Shown in pieces: positions 32,904 through 41,738 of a stretch of 64,000 nt of DNA (positions within the stretch are counted from its first letter, which is position 1; every line of letters starts with the position of its first letter). This DNA comes from Rhizobium sp. BT04 (GTDB lineage: Bacteria; Pseudomonadota; Alphaproteobacteria; Rhizobiales; Rhizobiaceae). Position numbers and translations under genes: made by a program. The stretch lies in contig NZ_CP125652.1 of NCBI RefSeq assembly GCF_030053135.1, forward strand, positions 3,280,501-3,344,500. Direction: 5' to 3'. The notes beneath the pieces were generated by a model that had not been told where the DNA came from, ran no database searches, and saw only the letters and a list, made by a program, of their open reading frames with translations.

Positions 32904-33890
32904 ATGCTGCGTTTCGGTATCATTTCAACGGCGAAGATCGGCCGCGACAATGTCGTTCCCGCGATCCAGGATGCGGAAAATTGCGTTGTCACGGCGATTG
33001 CCAGCCGTGATCTCACCCGCGCAAGGGAGATGGCCGACCGTTTCTCGGTGCCGCATGCCTTCGGTTCCTACGAGGAGATGCTGGCCTCCGACGTCATCGA
33101 CGCCGTCTATATCCCGCTGCCGACCGCCCAGCATATCGAATGGTCGATCAAGGCAGCCGATGCCGGCAAGCACGTGCTCTGCGAAAAACCGCTCGCCTTG
33201 AAATCAGGCGATATCGACGAGGTGATCGCCGCCCGCGACCGTAACCGCGTGGTGGTCACCGAAGCCTATATGATCACCTATTCCCCGGTTTGGCAGAAGG
33301 TGCGCGCACTGATCGACGAGGGGGCGATCGGTTCGCTCCGGCATGTGCAGGGCGCCTTCACCTATTTCAACCGCGACGCCACCAACATGCGCAACATTCC
33401 CGAGCTCGGCGGCGGCGGCCTTCCCGATATCGGGGTTTACCCCGTCATGAGCACCCGTTTTTCCACCGGCAAGGAGCCGCTCTGGATCCAGGCGACCACC
33501 GAGCGCGATCCGGATTTCGGCACGGATATCTATTCGAGCGTCAAGGCCGATTTCGGCGATTTCGAGCTGAGCTTCTATATCTCGACGCAGATGGCCAATC
33601 GCCAGGTCATGGTGTTCCACGGCAGCGACGGCTATATCGAGGTCAAGTCGCCGTTCAACGCCAATCGCTGGGGGCCGGAGGAGATCGAGCTTGCCGATCG
33701 CAGCCACAATGAATCGCGCATCTTCCGCTTCCAGGACAGCCGCCAGTACAGGCGTGAGGTCGAGGCCTTCGCCCGGGCGGTGAAGGACGGCAAGGAAGAG
33801 ATCGTCACGCTCGAAAATTCGAAGCTGAACCAGAAGGTGATCGACGCGATCTACCGGGCCAGCGAGAAGGACGGCTGGGAGGCAGTCTAG
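32904..33890 (+). CDS. Gfo/Idh/MocA family oxidoreductase
   Basis: The 328-residue protein has an N-terminal Rossmann fold ([18 protein letters not shown]), then [14 protein letters not shown], the EKP motif with catalytic Lys, and a C-terminal dimer domain starting [13 protein letters not shown]. Such enzymes oxidise or reduce sugars or inositols. GGGGAGG precedes the ATG. No sugar pathway neighbour indicates the substrate. Confidence 0.92.
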
Positions 33891-33943: not shown

Positions 33944-33995
33944 AAAGTGTTAGAGCGCCGCGCGTCCTTTTGGACGCGCGGCGCTCTAACACTTT
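33944..33995. repeat. Perfect 24-bp inverted repeat with 4-nt loop
   Basis: AAAGTGTTAGAGCGCCGCGCG continues to a TTTT loop and is then mirrored exactly for 24 nt. It forms a very stable hairpin in the 302-nt gap after the oxidoreductase gene; it is either a terminator-like element or an interspersed repeat of the family noted at 19021 and 62462. The rest of the gap up to the cheW end shows nothing recognisable. Confidence 0.9.
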
Positions 33996-34192
33996 TGATC
34001 AGCCCGAGGCGCCGCTGCTCCGAAGATCTGCGGTACGGAGGAGTTCAACGCGTCCGACAAGAGCTGACCGGCATGGCGGCGATGCGTGCGGCTAGCCGGC
34101 CAGATCCGAGGACGCCGCGTGTTGTGAATTGCGGGCGTTTAAGTCGTGTTCGGAAAATGGTTACCAAGTTATGACGCATAGCAGAGAGGCGA

Positions 34193-34672
34193 CTATGCAA
34201 CCATTTTGGTAGACTCAACTTGGTCGAACATTCTCTCCAGGTTCAAAAAGCAAATCATGCCGTCCGGCTGTGCGATAATGCCATCGGCGTAACGCATGCC
34301 GTTGGAAACGCTGATATCCGGAACCGGTTGAAGGAGGTCGGCGGTGATTGTCAGAATGTCCGAGACCCGGTCCACGACCAGACCAGTTGCCATGCCATGA
34401 ATCTCGGCCACGACGATGGCGCTGCGTTCGTTGGCCTCCGTGCTTTTCATGCCGAGCTTGTAGGCAAGATCGATAATCGGGATTACCGTCCCGCGCAGAT
34501 TCATGACGCCGATAACATCGGAGGGCGCATGAGGGATCGGCGTCGCCAGACCCCATCCGCGAATCTCGCGGATGGTCGTGGTGCGCACGCAGAATTCCTG
34601 ATCGTGCAGCCGAAACGCGATGATCTCAAGCGTTTCGCTGTCGTTCATGGGTGAGTTGACGGTGACATTCAT
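34193..34672 (-). CDS. cheW: CheW-like chemotaxis coupling protein
   Basis: CheW links chemoreceptors to the CheA kinase. The 159-residue protein has EIIAFRLHDQEFCVRTTTIREI, VIGVMNLRGTVIPIIDL and the conserved GLVVDRVSDIL, all CheW features. Its ATG overlaps the stop of the receptor gene (TGATG), so translation is coupled. No cheA, cheR or cheB lies in the window, so it must serve a kinase encoded elsewhere. Confidence 0.93.
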   Translation of the reverse strand: MNVTVNSPMNDSETLEIIAFRLHDQEFCVRTTTIREIRGWGLATPIPHAPSDVIGVMNLRGTVIPIIDLAYKLGMKSTEANERSAIVVAEIHGMATGLVVDRVSDILTITADLLQPVPDISVSNGMRYADGIIAQPDGMICFLNLERMFDQVESTKMVA

Positions 34673-36597
34673 CAGAAATTCTCCCAGCTTTCCTTGACAG
34701 CTGTATTTCCAGCAAATGCTCGGGCCACCTGTCCCACTATCTGCTTTGCGGGTGATGCGACAGGACGGTGATTGCTACCCGCAGCCATTACCGATGCTGT
34801 CTGGCGGAGCGCGCCGCCGAGCTGGAACTGGCCGATGAGTTCGCGCAGGCGTCCTGCCTCGCCGGCGAGGGTTGCGCTCGCCGCCGTGCTCTCTTCCACC
34901 ATTGCCGCGTTCTGCTGCGTCACTTGATCCATCTGATTGACGGCGGTGTTCACCTCCGCAAGACCAATCGATTGTTCGCGTGCCGATGTGGCGATCGCTT
35001 CCATATGCTGATTGACTGTTACGATATAGCCCTCGATCGTCTTGAGCGCTTCGCCGGTTTCGCTCACCAGCTTGACGCCGCTTTGCACCTCGGTGGATGA
35101 ATTTCGGATCAGTTCCTTGATTTCCTTTGCAGCCTGGGCGGAACGTTGCGCGAGTTCACGCACCTCCTGGGCAACGACGGCAAACCCCTTGCCCGCATCG
35201 CCGGCGCGGGCGGCTTCGACACCGGCATTGAGGGCCAGAAGGTTGGTCTGGAAGGCGATCTCGTCAATGACTCCGATAATGTTGGAGATCTGGTTGGAGG
35301 ACTGCTCGATCTTTTGCATGGCATCGACCGCATTGGCGACCACCTTGCCGGAATGAGTTGCGCTGGTGTTTGCCTGCGCGGCGACGGTCCGTGCTTCGTC
35401 AGCACGCTTTGACGAGTTCGAGACGTTGGCTGTGATCTGGTCCAGTGCCGCTGCTGTCTCCTCCAGGGAGGCAGCCTGCTGCTCGGTGCGCTTGGACAGG
35501 TCTGCGGCGGACTGACTAATCTCGCGGGTGCCGTTGTCGATCTGCGTCGTAGCCTGTGCAACAGCCCGGAGGGTTTCGGCAAGCTGCCCGACCGCACCAT
35601 TCAGATCGTGACGCAGGGCTTCGAAGTCCGGTGCGAAGGCCTCGTTGAGTTGGAAACTTAGATCACCAGTTGCAAGTCGGCGCAGTCCAGCCGCCAGACC
35701 AGATGTCGCCTCCTGAAGGCGCTTCTGCGCAGCCGCTTCGGCCTCTGCGGTCAGACGGATGCGGTCGGCTTCCGCGTGAACCCGAGCTGCTTCAGCTTCC
35801 TGCTCCAGCCGCTTGTTGCTGATGGCTGCCTGACGAAAGACTTCGACGGCACCCGCCATTTCGCCGATTTCGTCTGCGCGGCCTGCAAATGGAATGGCCT
35901 TTTCCGAGTCGCCACCCGCAAGATCGATCATGGATGCTGTTATTCTGCCGATTGGTCTTGAAATGCCCATGACGGCAAAGTAAACCGCGCCCAAGACAAT
36001 TCCGAATATAAGCGCGATGGCTACGTACGTAACCTTTACGGTAGAGGAGAAATTGGCCACGCTTTCGACACTTGCCTCGGATGCGGCATCCTTGTTGACG
36101 GCAACAAGCTTGTCAATTAGATCAGCCATGGCATCGGCAATGGGAGCCATTTCGTCATTCATGACAACCTTGGCATCGTCATCCTGAGAAGCTGCAGAAA
36201 ATTTTACGTATTTCTCGCCAGCCTTCCCCAAAAGCAAAAGTTTCGCGCGCAAGCCACTGACGAGGTCTCGATCCTTATCGTCAAGACCGAGGGCCTCGTA
36301 ATTCTTAATTTCGTTCTCGATGCGAGCCGTCTCACGGTCGATTGCCGTCTGCGCCTCATCTTGCGTCTTTTGGTCTGATGCCGCGAGATGAGCGAGGTAG
36401 GCTACACGCAGATCGGAAAGCGCCGTATCAACTTCCTTCGCAGCCATAGCACTTGGCATCAAATTGCCGGAGAGTTCGGTTACATTCCCGTTTGTTGTGA
36501 TCAGCGACTGCAGAGAAAAATATGAGAAAGCGGCGATGGCGACCGCTATTACACTGAGGAGCCCGATCAGGGCCGTTTTTATTTTAGGACGGGACAT
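34672..36597 (-). CDS. Methyl-accepting chemotaxis protein
   Basis: The 641-residue receptor has TM1 (about residues 8-30), a helical four-helix-bundle-like periplasmic domain of about 160 residues, TM2 near residue 200, then HAMP (RITASMIDLAGGDSEKAIPF) and a HAMP-like second segment. The signalling hairpin tip reads EIAFQTNLLALNAGVEAARA. Beyond a flexible tail the protein ends in SWENF, of the xWxxF form that tethers CheR. The ligand is not known. It is encoded directly upstream of its cheW. Confidence 0.94.
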   Translation of the reverse strand: MSRPKIKTALIGLLSVIAVAIAAFSYFSLQSLITTNGNVTELSGNLMPSAMAAKEVDTALSDLRVAYLAHLAASDQKTQDEAQTAIDRETARIENEIKNYEALGLDDKDRDLVSGLRAKLLLLGKAGEKYVKFSAASQDDDAKVVMNDEMAPIADAMADLIDKLVAVNKDAASEASVESVANFSSTVKVTYVAIALIFGIVLGAVYFAVMGISRPIGRITASMIDLAGGDSEKAIPFAGRADEIGEMAGAVEVFRQAAISNKRLEQEAEAARVHAEADRIRLTAEAEAAAQKRLQEATSGLAAGLRRLATGDLSFQLNEAFAPDFEALRHDLNGAVGQLAETLRAVAQATTQIDNGTREISQSAADLSKRTEQQAASLEETAAALDQITANVSNSSKRADEARTVAAQANTSATHSGKVVANAVDAMQKIEQSSNQISNIIGVIDEIAFQTNLLALNAGVEAARAGDAGKGFAVVAQEVRELAQRSAQAAKEIKELIRNSSTEVQSGVKLVSETGEALKTIEGYIVTVNQHMEAIATSAREQSIGLAEVNTAVNQMDQVTQQNAAMVEESTAASATLAGEAGRLRELIGQFQLGGALRQTASVMAAGSNHRPVASPAKQIVGQVARAFAGNTAVKESWENF

Positions 36598-36918
36598 AAC
36601 AGTTACTCCGAGCAGTAGAGCGCCCTTCGGGCGCGGGGGATTTGCCGAAGAGCAAAATCATTCTGCCGAAGGCTTAAAGGGAACGGAATACATTCCGCTC
36701 ATGGGGCCATGCAGAGCAATACATTTCCCTCGCGAGGGGTGATGACTACTCCTGAAGACAGAAAATTGTCGTGACTTATTTATTTTGGATTAATTTGGTT
36801 TGATCGAGGTGAGTGACGAAACGAATGGCTCGGTTTGCGGATACTTGGCACGCGATGTGGATATCTGACTGGCCCCCCGCTATACGATGTCATAGTGCCC
36901 CCGTTTCGGAGTTGATTC
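36598..36918. other. Upstream region of the chemoreceptor and end of the IS relic
   Basis: The receptor promoter must lie here. The part near 36840-36918 looks like the non-coding end of the adjacent IS6-type relic (GGGGGCACTATGACATCG on the minus strand). No intact gene is seen. Confidence 0.4.
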
Positions 36919-37312
36919 TTAGACTCTGTTAACCTTTGGCAGTCCGAAGAGGCGTGCGAGAAGATCGTTCTGATTGTTGACGGTCCAATCACCAAAAAAC
37001 CGAAGCCCTTCTTCAACCAGAGCATGGCTTCGAAGCTCGCGATCGTCCGCCGTGCCGTTTTGCAGGATTAGTAGCCGCCGATTTGGCATGTTCTTCTTCA
37101 CCCGGAAATGGTTGCTCTCGATGCCTTGCTGGAGATGCTTGGTGCCATAATGCACTGGGTCTGGCGGCAGAGGCCGATCGTCAACCGACGTCTTGATCAT
37201 CGATGGGAGGGTATTGGCGGCATCCGTGCCAATCCTGCTGGGCGAGAGCCGTGGGCTCGTCTTTCACCATCTTACGAAAGAACCGCTTGGCTGCGTCGAG
37301 ATCGCGTTTCGC
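36919..37312 (-). pseudogene. IS6-type transposase relic (C-terminal part, frameshifted)
   Basis: Reading across frames on the minus strand gives [14 protein letters not shown], then [35 protein letters not shown] and GDWTVNNQNDLLARLFGLPK. These are the C-terminal half of IS6/IS26-family DDE transposases, including the catalytic-Glu region. At least two frameshifts and loss of the N-terminal part make it non-functional. Its left part directly abuts a pxpA relic. Confidence 0.8.
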
Positions 37313-37313
37313 G

Positions 37314-37635
37314 GTGATCAGTTCGGCCAATATCGCCGCTGGTTTTCACGCCGGCGATCCCAACCCATGGACCAGACGGTTCGGCTGGCCACGGAGCATG
37401 GCGTCGGCATCGGCGCGCATCCGGGCTATAACGACCTTCAGGGTTTCGGCCGCCGCAAGATCGCTGGAACGGCCAAGGAACTGGTCAACGACATGTCTAC
37501 CAGGTGGGCGCGCCGCGAGAATTCGCCCGCCGCCACGGCGCCCGGCTTCCGCATGTGAAGCCGCATGGCGCGCTTTACATGGAAATGGCCGTCAACGCCG
37601 AGCTCTCGCGGATCTTCGCGCAGTACATGCTGTGG
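37314..37635 (+). pseudogene. pxpA: pxpA (LamB/YcsF, 5-oxoprolinase subunit A) relic
   Basis: Read across two frameshifts, the sequence gives [16 protein letters not shown], then [51 protein letters not shown] and [19 protein letters not shown]. This is the middle of PxpA, which helps cleave 5-oxoproline. The N-terminus was removed at the junction with the IS relic and the C-terminus at another mobile-element-like end. It cannot be functional. Confidence 0.82.
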
Positions 37636-37680
37636 ATTTGCACTGAGAAGTGACCCGGCATTTGCGCCGAGAATTGACCC
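37636..37680. repeat. Direct repeats resembling an IS21-type terminus
   Basis: ATTTGCACTGAGAAGTGACCC and ATTTGCGCCGAGAATTGACCC (each 21 nt, 3 mismatches, period 24 nt) lie between the pxpA relic and the gtrA stop. Multiple terminal direct repeats ending in TGACCC are seen in IS21-like elements; no transposase of that type is present. Assignment is tentative. Confidence 0.5.
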
Positions 37681-37685
37681 GTCTC

Positions 37686-38135
37686 TTAGGTCTGTTTCGG
37701 GTCGGTGGTTGCCGTCAAGTTTTTGAAGGCCTCGGGAAGCTCGGTGAATGGAGCACCGTTGCGCGCGCGGAAGACGAAGCGCGAATAGCCGAAGAAGCTG
37801 AAGACCATCGAGGCGACGCTGGCGATCACCATGGCCGCAAGCGGCTGAAGGGACGGCAGCGATAGCAGCAGCGCGGAATAGAGCCCGTAATTGACCAGCG
37901 CCGCCGTCACCCCGACCGAGCCGTAGCGGAAGCCTTCGGCGGCCAGCGAACGGCCGGAGCGATCGAAGGTGAAGCTCCGGTTGAAAGCCCAGGTCGCCGC
38001 CATCGCGAAGGCGATAGCGATGAGCCGCGCCAGAAATGGCCCGAGCGGTGTCAGGTCGAGCAGCGCCGACAGGATGCCGGCATCGACGAGGAAGCCGATG
38101 CCGCCGGCGATCGCGAAGCGGATGAGCTTTCTCAT
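37686..38135 (-). CDS. GtrA family membrane protein
   Basis: The 149-residue protein has four predicted transmembrane helices (FAIAGGIGFLVDAGILSALL first) and GtrA signatures such as FNRSFTFDRSG. GtrA proteins are thought to flip polyprenyl-phosphate-linked sugars made by the partner GT2. It overlaps that GT2 gene by ATGA. Its 3' end sits next to mobile-element debris but looks intact. Confidence 0.87.
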   Translation of the reverse strand: MRKLIRFAIAGGIGFLVDAGILSALLDLTPLGPFLARLIAIAFAMAATWAFNRSFTFDRSGRSLAAEGFRYGSVGVTAALVNYGLYSALLLSLPSLQPLAAMVIASVASMVFSFFGYSRFVFRARNGAPFTELPEAFKNLTATTDPKQT

Positions 38136-39139
38136 GCCGCATCCACCTTGCCGCGGCCGGCGCGCGACATCGGCCCTGTGTCGCTCAGCGGCGCCTTCAT
38201 CGCGCTCGGCGTCTCCAGGCTCATATAATGGATACGAAGCTGTTCGGCGCGGGCGCGTGCGACGGAATCCAGGATGACGCCGGCGGTGAACAGCATGAAG
38301 GAGATCATCATCAGCGCCATCGACAGCACCCAGGTCGGCATGCGGCTGACCAGGCCCGTCTCGAAATATTCCGCCAGCACCGGCGCCATGAAGCCGAGGC
38401 TCGCCAGCATGAAGGCGGCGCTGATCGCGCTGAAGAAGGCGAAGGGCCGCGTCTCCTTCATCAGCATCGCGAACATCCAGAGGATCCTGGCGCCGTCACG
38501 GAACGTCGACAGTTTGGAATGCGAGCCCTCCGGCCGGCGGCCATAGTCGAGCTCCAGCTCGCCGACCGGCAGCTTCAGCCGGGAGGCGTGCACGGACATT
38601 TCGGTTTCGATCTCGAAGCCGCCCGATACCGCCGGAAAGCTTTTGACGAAGCGGCGCGAAAAAGCACGGTAACCGGAAAAAATATCGGTGAACTCAGGGC
38701 CGAAGATCATCCGATAGAGCAGGTTGAATAGCCGGTTGCCGAGCGCATGGCCCTGACGTCCGGCATCGTCATGAACGCCGCGCCTTGTGCCCACAACCAT
38801 GTCGGCGCGTTCCAGCAGAAGCGTGCGCACCAGTTCCTCGGCATCGTCAGGCGCGTAGGTTCCGTCGCCATCGGCGACGATGTAGATGTCGGCCTCGATA
38901 TCGGCGAACATGCGGCGCACCACATGGCCTTTGCCTTGGCGCCGCTCGCGCACCACATGCGCGCCGGCCAGCATCGCCTGCAGCGTGGTTCCGTCGGTGG
39001 AATTATTGTCATAGACGTGGATTGCAGCGTCCGGCAGCACCGCCCGGAAGCCCCGCACGACAGCGCCGATCGTCGCCGCCTCGTTATAGCAGGGAAGCAG
39101 AACGGCAATGTCCGGATGATGGGTACGCGATCGGGCCAT
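38132..39139 (-). CDS. Polyprenyl-phosphate glycosyltransferase (DPM1-like GT2) with C-terminal helices
   Basis: The 335-residue protein has the GT2 core (IAVLLPCYNEAATIGAVVRG, YDNNSTDGT, IVADGDGTY with the DxD-like motif, FSGYRAFSRRF) and two hydrophobic helices at the C-terminus. Such enzymes transfer a sugar to undecaprenyl phosphate. It is translationally coupled to gtrA. Together they would supply a lipid-linked sugar donor on the periplasmic side. Confidence 0.9.
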   Translation of the reverse strand: MARSRTHHPDIAVLLPCYNEAATIGAVVRGFRAVLPDAAIHVYDNNSTDGTTLQAMLAGAHVVRERRQGKGHVVRRMFADIEADIYIVADGDGTYAPDDAEELVRTLLLERADMVVGTRRGVHDDAGRQGHALGNRLFNLLYRMIFGPEFTDIFSGYRAFSRRFVKSFPAVSGGFEIETEMSVHASRLKLPVGELELDYGRRPEGSHSKLSTFRDGARILWMFAMLMKETRPFAFFSAISAAFMLASLGFMAPVLAEYFETGLVSRMPTWVLSMALMMISFMLFTAGVILDSVARARAEQLRIHYMSLETPSAMKAPLSDTGPMSRAGRGKVDAA

Positions 39140-39299
39140 GACTCCACTCGTTACTCTTAAAGCCGCGCCCAGCCTAAATGACCCGACTTAACAAGACCCC
39201 TATGGCGCCGGCGAAATCGGCGGCCGCGCAGATAGCTTTACACTTTCTTGATCGGCGGCGGCTAAGCTTCGGCCGTCCGGAAACGAACCGCTAACCACG

Positions 39300-41147
39300 A
39301 TGAACGCCTTGCAGCCGATCGCTCATTCATCATCCGTGACCGCCGCACCCGGCGGCGGAATACGCGGCCTGCTGACATCTCTCCGGCCAACCGTCATCGC
39401 CTACAGCGTCGTTGTTGCTGCCGTCATCCTGGTGATCAATCTCACCGAGGCTGTTGATTACGTCGGTCCCGACAATGACGACGGAATGCGCCTCGTCGAG
39501 GTTCGCGATTTTCTCGCCGGGCAGGGCTGGTTCGATCTGATGCAATACCGCCTCGGCCTCGACGGCGGCACGCTGATGCACTGGTCCCGGCTGATCGATT
39601 TGCCGATCGCGTCGCTGATCTGGTTCTTCGGCCTGTTTGCGCCCCGCGAGACGGCCGAGGCGCTGGCGCTTGGCCTCTGGCCGATATCGCTCATCCTGCC
39701 AACCATGCTCGCCATGGCCGTTGCCGGCCGGCGCATCGGCGGCGTTGCCGGCATGCACATCAGCCTCGGCATGACCGGCCTAGCCATCTACACCGGCAGC
39801 CGTTTCGCTCCCGGCGCCATCGATCATCACAATGCGCAGCTGGCGCTGGTCGCGACGATGGTAGCGATGCTGCTCGATCCCAAGCGGCGCGGCTGGAACT
39901 ATGCGGTCGCCGGCATCGCGGCGGCTGTCGCCATTGCCATCGGCGCCGAGACGACGCCATTTGTCGCTTCCGTCTGCCTGACCGTCGCCCTGCTCTGGGC
40001 ATGGGAGGGCGAAAATTACGCCGCTGCCGCAAAGGCCTTCGGGCTGGGGCTGGCGATTGCGATCAGCATTCTCTTTTTCGCAACGGTGCCGCCCCGGCTC
40101 TATTCGACCGTCACCTCGGACAATCTCTCGCTCGGTTATTACAGCCTGGCGGCAATCGGCGGCGGGTTGCTGCTGTTTTCGGCGGTCTTTGCGAGCGGCC
40201 TGCACCGACCGTTTCGCTTTGCGGCGCTCGCCGTCGTCGGCGCCGGCGTTCTCGGTTCGGCGATGGTGATCGCGCCGCAATGCCTGAGCAATCCGCTGGC
40301 CGATCTCGATCCGATGCTGGTCGAACTCTGGTTGAGAAACGTCCCCGAAGCGAAGTCAATCTTCGCTCTCGGCCGCACCGACCCCTTCTCGATCGGCGCC
40401 TTCCATGCCGCCGGCCTCTTCGGCATCGCCGTCTGCATCTTCCGCATCATCAAGCGCGACCGCATGCAGATCCATCTGGTTCTGCTCTTCCTGCTGGCGA
40501 CCAGCTGGGCAATCGCGTTGATCCAGGTGCGTGGCGCGGCTTTCTCGAACCTGCTCTCCATCCTGCCGCTTGCCTTGCTGATCATCGACGTCAGGCGCAT
40601 CTCCAACGGCGACAGCGAAAATGTCGCGGCAGCCTTCGTCTATATCGTGACCGTGCTCGCAAGTGTTCCGGCCGCCTGGGCCGCCGCTGGCGGTTTTGTC
40701 TCGCTGCAGATGGAGAATGCCGCGCAGACGAAAACGGCCGAGCCGGCAAAAGAGATGTCCTGCACATCGAAGGAGGCACTGGCGCCGCTCGCCGGGCTTC
40801 CGGCGGGGCTGGTCTCCGCGCCGTCGGAAATGGGCGTGCCGATCCTCCGCTTCACGGAAAATCGGGTTCTCTCGGCGCCCTATCACCGCAACCAGGGCGG
40901 CATGCTGACGGAGCTGCATATCGGGCTGGCCGAGCCACGGGAGGCGGAAGCCTTCCTGAAGGGGGCTGGGGTGACGATGCTTGGGTTCTGCGCCGGTGAC
41001 CTGCAGACGCGTGAGATCGCCAAGCTGAAGCCGGATGGCCTCTATGCCGAGCTTGGTAAGGGCAATATCCCGCCCTATCTGCAACCGCTTCCGAAGACCG
41101 CGGGCACGGGCGTTCAGTTCTTTCGCTATCGGCCGGCGGCGAATTGA
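39300..41147 (+). CDS. Large membrane protein resembling STT3/GT-C glycosyltransferases
   Basis: The 615-residue protein has about 12 hydrophobic helices and a 150-residue soluble C-terminal part. Near residue 60 an acidic first-loop motif (GPDNDDGMRLVEVRDF), then LMHWSRLIDLP near 93 and GAIDHHNAQL near 175 recall the D-x-D and DHH motifs of STT3/PglB-type GT-C enzymes. It may transfer a sugar from a lipid carrier to a periplasmic acceptor. It is divergent from the GT2-gtrA pair. Glycosyltransferase activity is inference; it belongs to a largely uncharacterised family. Confidence 0.6.
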   Translation: MNALQPIAHSSSVTAAPGGGIRGLLTSLRPTVIAYSVVVAAVILVINLTEAVDYVGPDNDDGMRLVEVRDFLAGQGWFDLMQYRLGLDGGTLMHWSRLIDLPIASLIWFFGLFAPRETAEALALGLWPISLILPTMLAMAVAGRRIGGVAGMHISLGMTGLAIYTGSRFAPGAIDHHNAQLALVATMVAMLLDPKRRGWNYAVAGIAAAVAIAIGAETTPFVASVCLTVALLWAWEGENYAAAAKAFGLGLAIAISILFFATVPPRLYSTVTSDNLSLGYYSLAAIGGGLLLFSAVFASGLHRPFRFAALAVVGAGVLGSAMVIAPQCLSNPLADLDPMLVELWLRNVPEAKSIFALGRTDPFSIGAFHAAGLFGIAVCIFRIIKRDRMQIHLVLLFLLATSWAIALIQVRGAAFSNLLSILPLALLIIDVRRISNGDSENVAAAFVYIVTVLASVPAAWAAAGGFVSLQMENAAQTKTAEPAKEMSCTSKEALAPLAGLPAGLVSAPSEMGVPILRFTENRVLSAPYHRNQGGMLTELHIGLAEPREAEAFLKGAGVTMLGFCAGDLQTREIAKLKPDGLYAELGKGNIPPYLQPLPKTAGTGVQFFRYRPAAN

Positions 41148-41185
41148 CGCCGTCGGCTGTTGGGCAATCTTTGGTGAGAAGCGCT

Positions 41186-41431
41186 TTAGTGAGAAACGCG
41201 CGTCGCGCGACGAAGACGCGTATTGGCATAGAGCCCGAGAACGAAGAGCATGAGGCCGGCATTATAGCCGAGGACGGCATAGGCGAATGCCAGGATCGAC
41301 ACCGGTCCGGGCGAGGTGATCGCCGCCACCGCGAATGTCATTCCGATCAGCGCGGCGATCAACGCGATCGCGGCGGCCGAGCGCGTTTGTCCGGCGCTGA
41401 TGCCCAATGCTGCTGCTGTGAGAATAATCAT
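41186..41431 (-). CDS. Small hydrophobic membrane protein
   Basis: The 81-residue product has two transmembrane segments (IALIAALIGMTFAVAAI and ILAFAYAVLGYNAGLMLFVL) with a basic tail. It is convergent with the GT-C-like gene. The ATG giving MIILTAAAL with a nearby GGGTG is used. No family is recognised. Confidence 0.5.
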   Translation of the reverse strand: MIILTAAALGISAGQTRSAAAIALIAALIGMTFAVAAITSPGPVSILAFAYAVLGYNAGLMLFVLGLYANTRLRRATRVSH

Positions 41432-41738
41432 TTTCAGCACCCTTCCCGAAGAACGAGGGGAAGCATAGGAAGCGCCAGCTAACAAAGATTTACCGGCCAT
41501 CTCGGCAGAAAAGCCTTTGTATTGCGGTGGTTAGCAATCCCTTTCAGGTAAAACGCGAATTGTAACTATCTGTTCCGCAACCAAACGAATTTCAGTGAAT
41601 TCGCTGTCGGCCGCCAAGCCGACCGAGCTAAATGGCGCGACGACGGCGTCGGCCCGTTGCTGATTTCAATAGCCGGGAAAACGGCCTCTGCATCGATGCC
41701 GACCTTCCCGTTTGCTGCCGATGCGCTAGAAAGAAGGA
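41432..41738. other. Intergenic region upstream of xseA
   Basis: No gene, repeat or clear promoter pair could be recognised. It must include the promoters of the small membrane protein (minus) and xseA (plus). Confidence 0.5.

Follow-up and report, generated by a model that had tools for sequence, protein, structure and literature searches.

A probable three-part periplasmic glycosylation system in Rhizobium sp. BT04 and its relatives, with an STT3/AglB-fold transferase and varied donor modules

Three-component periplasmic glycosylation is already known, as is the STT3 fold. In the Gtr-type systems (GtrA, GtrB and a Gtr transferase called serotype-specific; GT136 in the pentofuranose relatives), a lipid-linked sugar synthase, a flippase and a GT-C transferase are encoded together, and the described Gram-negative systems of this kind act on O-antigen (PMC11127046). 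Other close comparisons are the oligosaccharyltransferases (OSTs) AglB, STT3 and PglB of family PF02516, the tryptophan C-mannosyltransferase DPY19 (solved example from C. elegans), the synthase AglJ, and ArnE/ArnF, the flippase of undecaprenyl-phosphate aminoarabinose. Here we analyze a locus in a 64,000-nucleotide stretch of Rhizobium sp. BT04 (NZ_CP125652.1, positions 3,280,501 to 3,344,500; hereafter the window), in which gtrA and a glycosyltransferase family 2 (GT2) gene overlap by 4 nt and the GT2 gene diverges, across 160 bp, from an open reading frame (ORF) for a 615-residue protein (Table 1).

The locus resembles Gtr-type systems in encoding a synthase, a flippase and a GT-C enzyme together, in a GT2 model that resembles GtrB, and in the GtrA family, which is common to both. 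It differs in that the transferase has the STT3/AglB fold with a C-terminal domain and is kept while the donor module varies, in that the flippase can be ArnE/F-like, and in that a comparison of the transferase with 50,697 phage records gave no match. With AglB, STT3 and PglB the transferase shares the fold, and with AfAglB its ND and DHH motifs, but it lacks WWDYG and adjoins a single-sugar donor module. The root-mean-square deviation of the transferase is larger to DPY19 than to AglB.

We propose, at a probability of about 0.8, that the three genes encode a periplasmic glycosylation system that loads, flips and transfers a sugar. The locus combines a GT2 of a synthase family, a protein of a small flippase family and a transferase of GT-C fold, and the genes are linked and co-occur. 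At the cytoplasmic face of the membrane the GT2 would use a nucleotide sugar to load polyprenyl phosphate with one sugar unit, probably a hexose; GtrA, replaced in some lineages by an ArnE/F-like protein, would turn the lipid-linked sugar to the periplasmic face; and the STT3/AglB-fold enzyme would pass the sugar from the lipid to a periplasmic or surface acceptor by way of an AglB-type metal site. This chain of steps follows from the gene families and matches the three-component logic described in PMC11127046. We infer the reactions, the transfer of a single sugar rather than an oligosaccharide, the identity of the sugar and the acceptor.

The original prediction, made from the sequence alone, is partly supported. 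Its roles of lipid-linked sugar synthase, flippase and GT-C transferase hold as family and fold assignments, and the 615-residue protein is computationally STT3-like, as it had proposed. Neither of the grounds that it named for rejection, a large protein lacking the GT-C fold or a failure of the three genes to co-occur elsewhere, was seen, the co-occurrence being supported by the counts over the 247 family genomes and the 80 named loci discussed below. The claim of a previously undescribed three-part system was overstated, Gtr-type three-component glycosylation having already been described (PMC11127046). What does stand is the family itself: the open-access literature searched held no description of the cluster or of a conserved STT3/AglB-fold transferase with exchanged donor modules. 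PMC11103875 mentions a pair of glycosyl transferase genes under locus tags that could not be mapped to the cluster.

The transferase and its candidate active site

Identification of the 615-residue protein as an STT3/AglB-fold GT-C transferase is supported by its architecture, a GT-C membrane domain followed by a C-terminal periplasmic domain, and by a match to AglB that spans the whole fold, including the C-terminal domain. Residue conservation was counted over 65 aligned members of the transferase family. D60, H176, E350 and R411 are present in all 65, D175 in 64, H177 in 61 and N59 in 52. In AfAglB the metal is coordinated by D47 (Gly-Asn-Asp motif) together with D161 and H163 (Asp-His-His motif), and E360 in the TIXE motif acts via water (PMC8342417). 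Metal-site arginines are R147 in PglB and R154 in AglB, and the donor pyrophosphate is contacted by PglB R375, equivalent to yeast Stt3 R404 (PMC7226087). R168, which aligns with the metal-site arginine of AglB and PglB, is an arginine in only 30 of the 65 members.

For profile comparison with HHalign we used the bacterial STT3 (PF02516) proteins of a phylum sample of 349 genomes. Such proteins score over the cut-off in nine of these genomes (L151-L159), all outside the class of Rhizobium, and five of the nine carry WWD-x-G. In the local runs against the four most canonical sequences and against all nine, D60, R69, R168, D175 and H177 fall on an aspartate of the first STT3 motif, two arginines and both aspartates of the second DXD. 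The run with the four canonical sequences, and no other, also places R411 on the arginine in TQRFLIF, a helix stretch of STT3, and PSEMG on WWDFG; with another choice of four sequences R411 lies 4 columns off. Thus D60, D175, H177, R168 and R411 each meet an STT3 residue in at least one profile alignment, and two DXD-type metal motifs are present, D60, D175 and H177 being both conserved and aligned. E350 was placed by eye, and on that reading would correspond to the loop-5 glutamate (TIXE/SVSE); R411 would be the candidate for the phosphate-site arginine.

The WWDYG motif is absent. Opposite S-W-W-D-Y-G the family profile reads a-p-s-d-l-G, with PSEMG in the window protein; G512 is fixed in all 65 members and position 510 is N in 31, D in 22 and E in 10. 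Because the aspartates and histidines are conserved and WWDYG is replaced, the family keeps the metal-site half of the OSTs with the known acceptor-reading motif changed. An AglB-like fold that has lost WWDYG is a natural experiment on acceptor choice in OSTs. Residue 273 is serine in the window protein and cysteine in 64 of the 65 aligned proteins, and cysteines 328, 488 and 564 are invariant in all 65.

The donor half, its linkage and its variety

The best NCBIfam model for the GT2 is TIGR04182 (archaeal AglJ), which matches over nearly the full length (E 9.7e-62); the score of 209 bits is below the equivalog cut-off of 325. The predicted fold (predicted local distance difference test score 80.7) ends, on the C-terminal side, in a pair of long helices that look hydrophobic on inspection, and its best Foldseek matches are ArnC, GtrB and dolichyl-phosphate mannose synthase, membrane parts included. 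The protein is a probable polyprenyl-phosphate monosaccharide synthase. Its partner gtrA, the only gene of the genome that PF04138 matched at E<=0.001, encodes by family assignment a candidate flippase for the lipid-linked sugar. The first half of the PF04138 model matches twice inside GtrA (positions 1-63 and 1-57), which suggests an internal repeat.

Linkage was measured in a family sample of 247 genomes (cut-offs of E<=1e-60 for the GT2 and E<=1e-20 for the transferase). The GT2 is present in 112 genomes, the transferase in 122 and both in 108 (Fisher p 2e-48, without correction for kinship), and in 105 of the 247 the two genes are adjacent and divergent. Within the genus the transferase was found in all 59 other sampled genomes, and the GT2 adjoins it in 52 of the 54 loci examined among those 59; both the presence throughout the genus and the divergent adjacency in the family are beyond chance. 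Elsewhere in the order, 8 of 40 genomes belonging to other families have the transferase. At a cut-off of E<=1e-15, 48 of the 349 phylum genomes were positive, 44 from the same class and 4 from outside it. An STT3/AglB-like family that is unmatched in Pfam and present in every other genome sampled from the genus points to a general modification of the envelope of plant-associated bacteria.

Gene order was compared in 80 named loci, the best 80 of at least 534 confirmed stretches from one scan. The window itself lies in a chromosome of Rhizobium type: a separate listing of homologues gave Rhizobium for those with names, and L149 (Rhizobium sp. L43) is the closest among the named loci. The order gtrA-GT2-transferase occurs in 49 of the 80. 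Seven have a joined arrangement, gtrA-ArnE-like-methyltransferase-GT2-transferase; five have the same without gtrA; six encode GT2, gtrA and transferase on one strand; seven show other orders; and six have the transferase alone. The alternative small protein matches EamA in all three loci tested (L126, L101 and L142). Its nearest flippase models, tested in L101, are ArnE (E 4.8e-11, 42.8 bits against a cut-off of 92) and ArnF (1.5e-9, 38.4 against 99); all but one of the EamA, ArnE and ArnF matches lie below cut-off, and the partner enzymes differ from those of ArnE/ArnF. The ArnE-like protein replaces GtrA as a different kind of putative lipid-sugar flippase, and the flippase reading of both is therefore supported. 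In L075, where the GT2 lies on the strand of the transferase, its best NCBIfam model is likewise TIGR04182 (2.2e-39, 136 bits, again below 325).

Exchange of donor modules was followed in 23 Mesorhizobium-type loci chosen from the 80 (L077, L078, L080, L082, L087, L095 and L102 were among those left out). The cluster is flanked by a glutathione synthetase gene in all 23 and by a GGDEF-EAL gene in 21 (families checked in L075). Between these flanks the donor module is a divergent gtrA-GT2 pair in 13 loci, a same-strand GT2-gtrA pair in eight, an ArnE-like protein with a methyltransferase in one, and in one a GT2 with no flippase seen. Across such differences the transferases are 83% identical in L088 and L099, 85-86% in L085 compared with L083 and L097, 79% in L103 and L075, and 63% in L090 and L109. 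DNA similarity between L088 and L099 stops after the synthetase gene and resumes about 50-70 nt inside the transferase gene, so that the dissimilar stretch runs from 5262 to 6921 in L088 and from 4830 to 6921 in L099. When donor type is mapped on a transferase tree of 26 rows, six changes are required, and well-supported branches force at least five of them. Shuffled labels require no more than this in 123 to 127 of 500 trials, which shows hardly any clustering of donor type on the tree. The exchange could be a replacement of the donor or a move of the transferase between two clusters; some genomes carry two transferase genes. Transferases of 83-86% identity adjoin different donor modules, and strains therefore probably differ in the sugar that they transfer. 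An enzyme found beside several donor modules is also of interest for glycoengineering.

Weighing the scheme and its acceptor

A number of results count against the load-flip-transfer scheme. The window transferase matches neither TIGR04154 nor PF02516, a Pfam scan of it gave no match at E<=0.1, and 64 of the 65 family members have no PF02516 match, the remaining one scoring E 0.0038. No PF02516 gene was found in this genome at E<=0.001. Local HHalign comparison of the family with STT3 was weak with two choices of four sequences (probability 3%, E 0.015; and 5%, E 0.0072, for the most canonical four) and moderate with all nine (41%, E 0.00029); global alignment failed in three runs, and E350 was unaligned with the glutamate of STT3 external loop 5 (SISE) in every run. 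Soluble GpgS, which is not a lipid-sugar synthase, ties on Z score for the GT2 catalytic domain, and we therefore take the lipid acceptor of the GT2 from the C-terminal helices and the gene context. In L101, the joined locus tested, GtrA scores 18.8 bits, short of the cut-off of 26.1, and is degenerate. To the six transferase-only loci must be added, in the family sample, 14 genomes with the transferase and no GT2 at the cut-offs above, four with the reverse, and three in which both are present and non-adjacent; five of the 14 were searched again, and four proved to have a GT2 of 29-30% identity within 2 kb of the transferase, the fifth having none. Finally, L054 and L055, of the same genus, lack the GT2 in the cluster and have a relative of 51-53% identity elsewhere in each genome, one of the two with an internal stop.

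It is very improbable that the three genes are syntenic neighbors without a common function. xseA and the MocA oxidoreductase gene are likewise kept beside them in Rhizobium, but they are neighbors in only part of the loci, and the GT2-flippase-transferase grouping lasts without them in the Mesorhizobium-type loci and in Sphingosinicella and recurs with different donor modules. The AglB fold and the AglJ-like GT2 could also be read as an OST that transfers an oligosaccharide assembled in full beforehand, of which the GT2 adds the first sugar only, much as Haloferax AglJ starts an oligosaccharide. We consider this improbable, in that no further glycosyltransferases were seen beside the window cluster in the listed gene orders and GtrA has been proposed to flip a single glucose carried on undecaprenyl phosphate (PMC11127046).

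For the acceptor we favor, with weak commitment and at rather less than even odds, a periplasmic or surface protein rather than lipopolysaccharide (LPS), reached by a minimal AglJ/AglB-like route that adds a single sugar. The transferase keeps the AglB-type C-terminal domain, DPY19 shows that a protein can be mannosylated by this fold, and the sphingomonad L119, one of a group not known to make LPS, has the full cluster (GtrA there detected by hidden Markov model (HMM) only). Against a protein stand the absence of the two WWDYG tryptophans, which help OSTs to bind the Ser/Thr of the sequon, and the lack of any known glycopeptide; module exchange, moreover, is more familiar in surface polysaccharide systems. 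LPS (core or O-antigen) or another surface polysaccharide may be the acceptor, as in Gtr seroconversion, with the odds somewhat further against it: the rhizobial RgtA-D/RgtE galacturonic acid pathway is a precedent of the LPS or polysaccharide type, the described three-component systems act on O-antigen, and exchangeable donor modules fit antigenic change. Yet the pattern here is the reverse of that in Gtr, with the transferase kept and the donor half varying, the presence of the transferase in every sampled genome of the genus is unlike a variable serotype locus, and the sphingomonad cluster also argues against LPS. Another envelope molecule, such as a membrane lipid, a periplasmic glucan or peptidoglycan, would suit the broad alphaproteobacterial spread of the transferase, and is unlikely: no gene for a polymer of this kind was seen kept beside the cluster, where xseA and MocA adjoin only part of the loci. 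The protein reading, taken to its full extent, would have an alphaproteobacterial glycosylation akin to archaeal AglJ-AglB, in which a sequon-blind STT3-fold enzyme adds a single sugar, and strains change that sugar by swapping the synthase-flippase cassette next to a retained transferase; as a whole this picture is rather doubtful, if a shade less so than the last alternative.

Layout of the locus and neighboring features

The ORF coordinates, residue positions and Pfam matches confirm the arrangement first described, an overlapping gtrA/GT2 pair divergent from a protein with PDNDD (residues 57-61), HWSRL (94-98) and DHH (175-177) motifs. The span first given for it, ending at 41431, covers the three genes and overshoots into a fourth ORF.

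Table 1. Features of the locus (positions in the window)
Feature	Coordinates	Strand	Length	Assignment	Evidence
gtrA	37686-38135	-	149 aa	candidate flippase for polyprenyl-phosphate sugar (GtrA_DPMS_TM family)	PF04138, E 1e-22
GT2	38132-39139	-	335 aa	probable polyprenyl-phosphate monosaccharide synthase, AglJ-like	PF00535, 2e-16
Intergenic region	39140-39299		160 bp	between divergent GT2 and transferase genes	
STT3/AglB-fold GT-C transferase	39300-41147	+	615 aa		D58-N59-D60, D175-H176-H177, E350, R411; degenerate WWDYG site 508-512 (PSEMG)
Small hydrophobic protein gene	41189-41434	-	82 aa	convergent with transferase	HMM relatives at related loci

The length and sequence blocks of the intergenic region are conserved in 27 aligned sequences (two of them from this genome), and the GT2-transferase gap has a median of 225 bp and a range of 135-1173 in the 105 family genomes with the divergent pair. 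The region is possibly a shared control region with putative promoters; a promoter-consensus scan was uninformative, with 14 matches where 9.5 were expected and none in the 160 bp.

The small convergent protein has HMM relatives in 52 of 120 related loci as well as in the window (some loci being the same genome twice), always 3' of the transferase and opposite to it. An NCBIfam search with it gave no match, and it is possibly an accessory or possibly a mere syntenic neighbor. A 71-residue ORF beside the ArnE-like gene in L126 was considered as a relative and rejected, the HMM not having recovered it.

On the gtrA side lies a strain-specific insertion of about 3.8 kb (33994-37764), which carries a methyl-accepting chemotaxis protein, cheW, a sub-threshold DDE_Tnp_IS240 fragment and LamB/YcsF fragments. 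It is absent from L149 and L140, and also from L118, where the boundary differs by about 100 bp. Because the insertion ends within the 3' end of gtrA, the last 25 residues of GtrA are unlike those of its relatives. Beyond it is a Gfo/Idh/MocA oxidoreductase gene (32907-33890), which in many Rhizobium relatives adjoins gtrA convergently.

Transferase relatives also occur in other settings. Seven genomes of the genus (L038-L044) have a second paralogue elsewhere, 26-29% identical, with neither GT2 nor GtrA found next to it, and in a further genome, G008, the second paralogue is in two pieces. In two Bradyrhizobium loci (L091:5394-6935 and L125:5436-6938) a protein of about 500 residues precedes the transferase. 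Its L091 copy matched nothing in Pfam or NCBIfam, and neither GtrA nor GT2 turned up nearby. In L034 (6196-10202) a relative with no GT2 found lies beside GtrA and a flavin amine-oxidase-like protein, the latter with a sub-threshold match to UDP-galactopyranose mutase.

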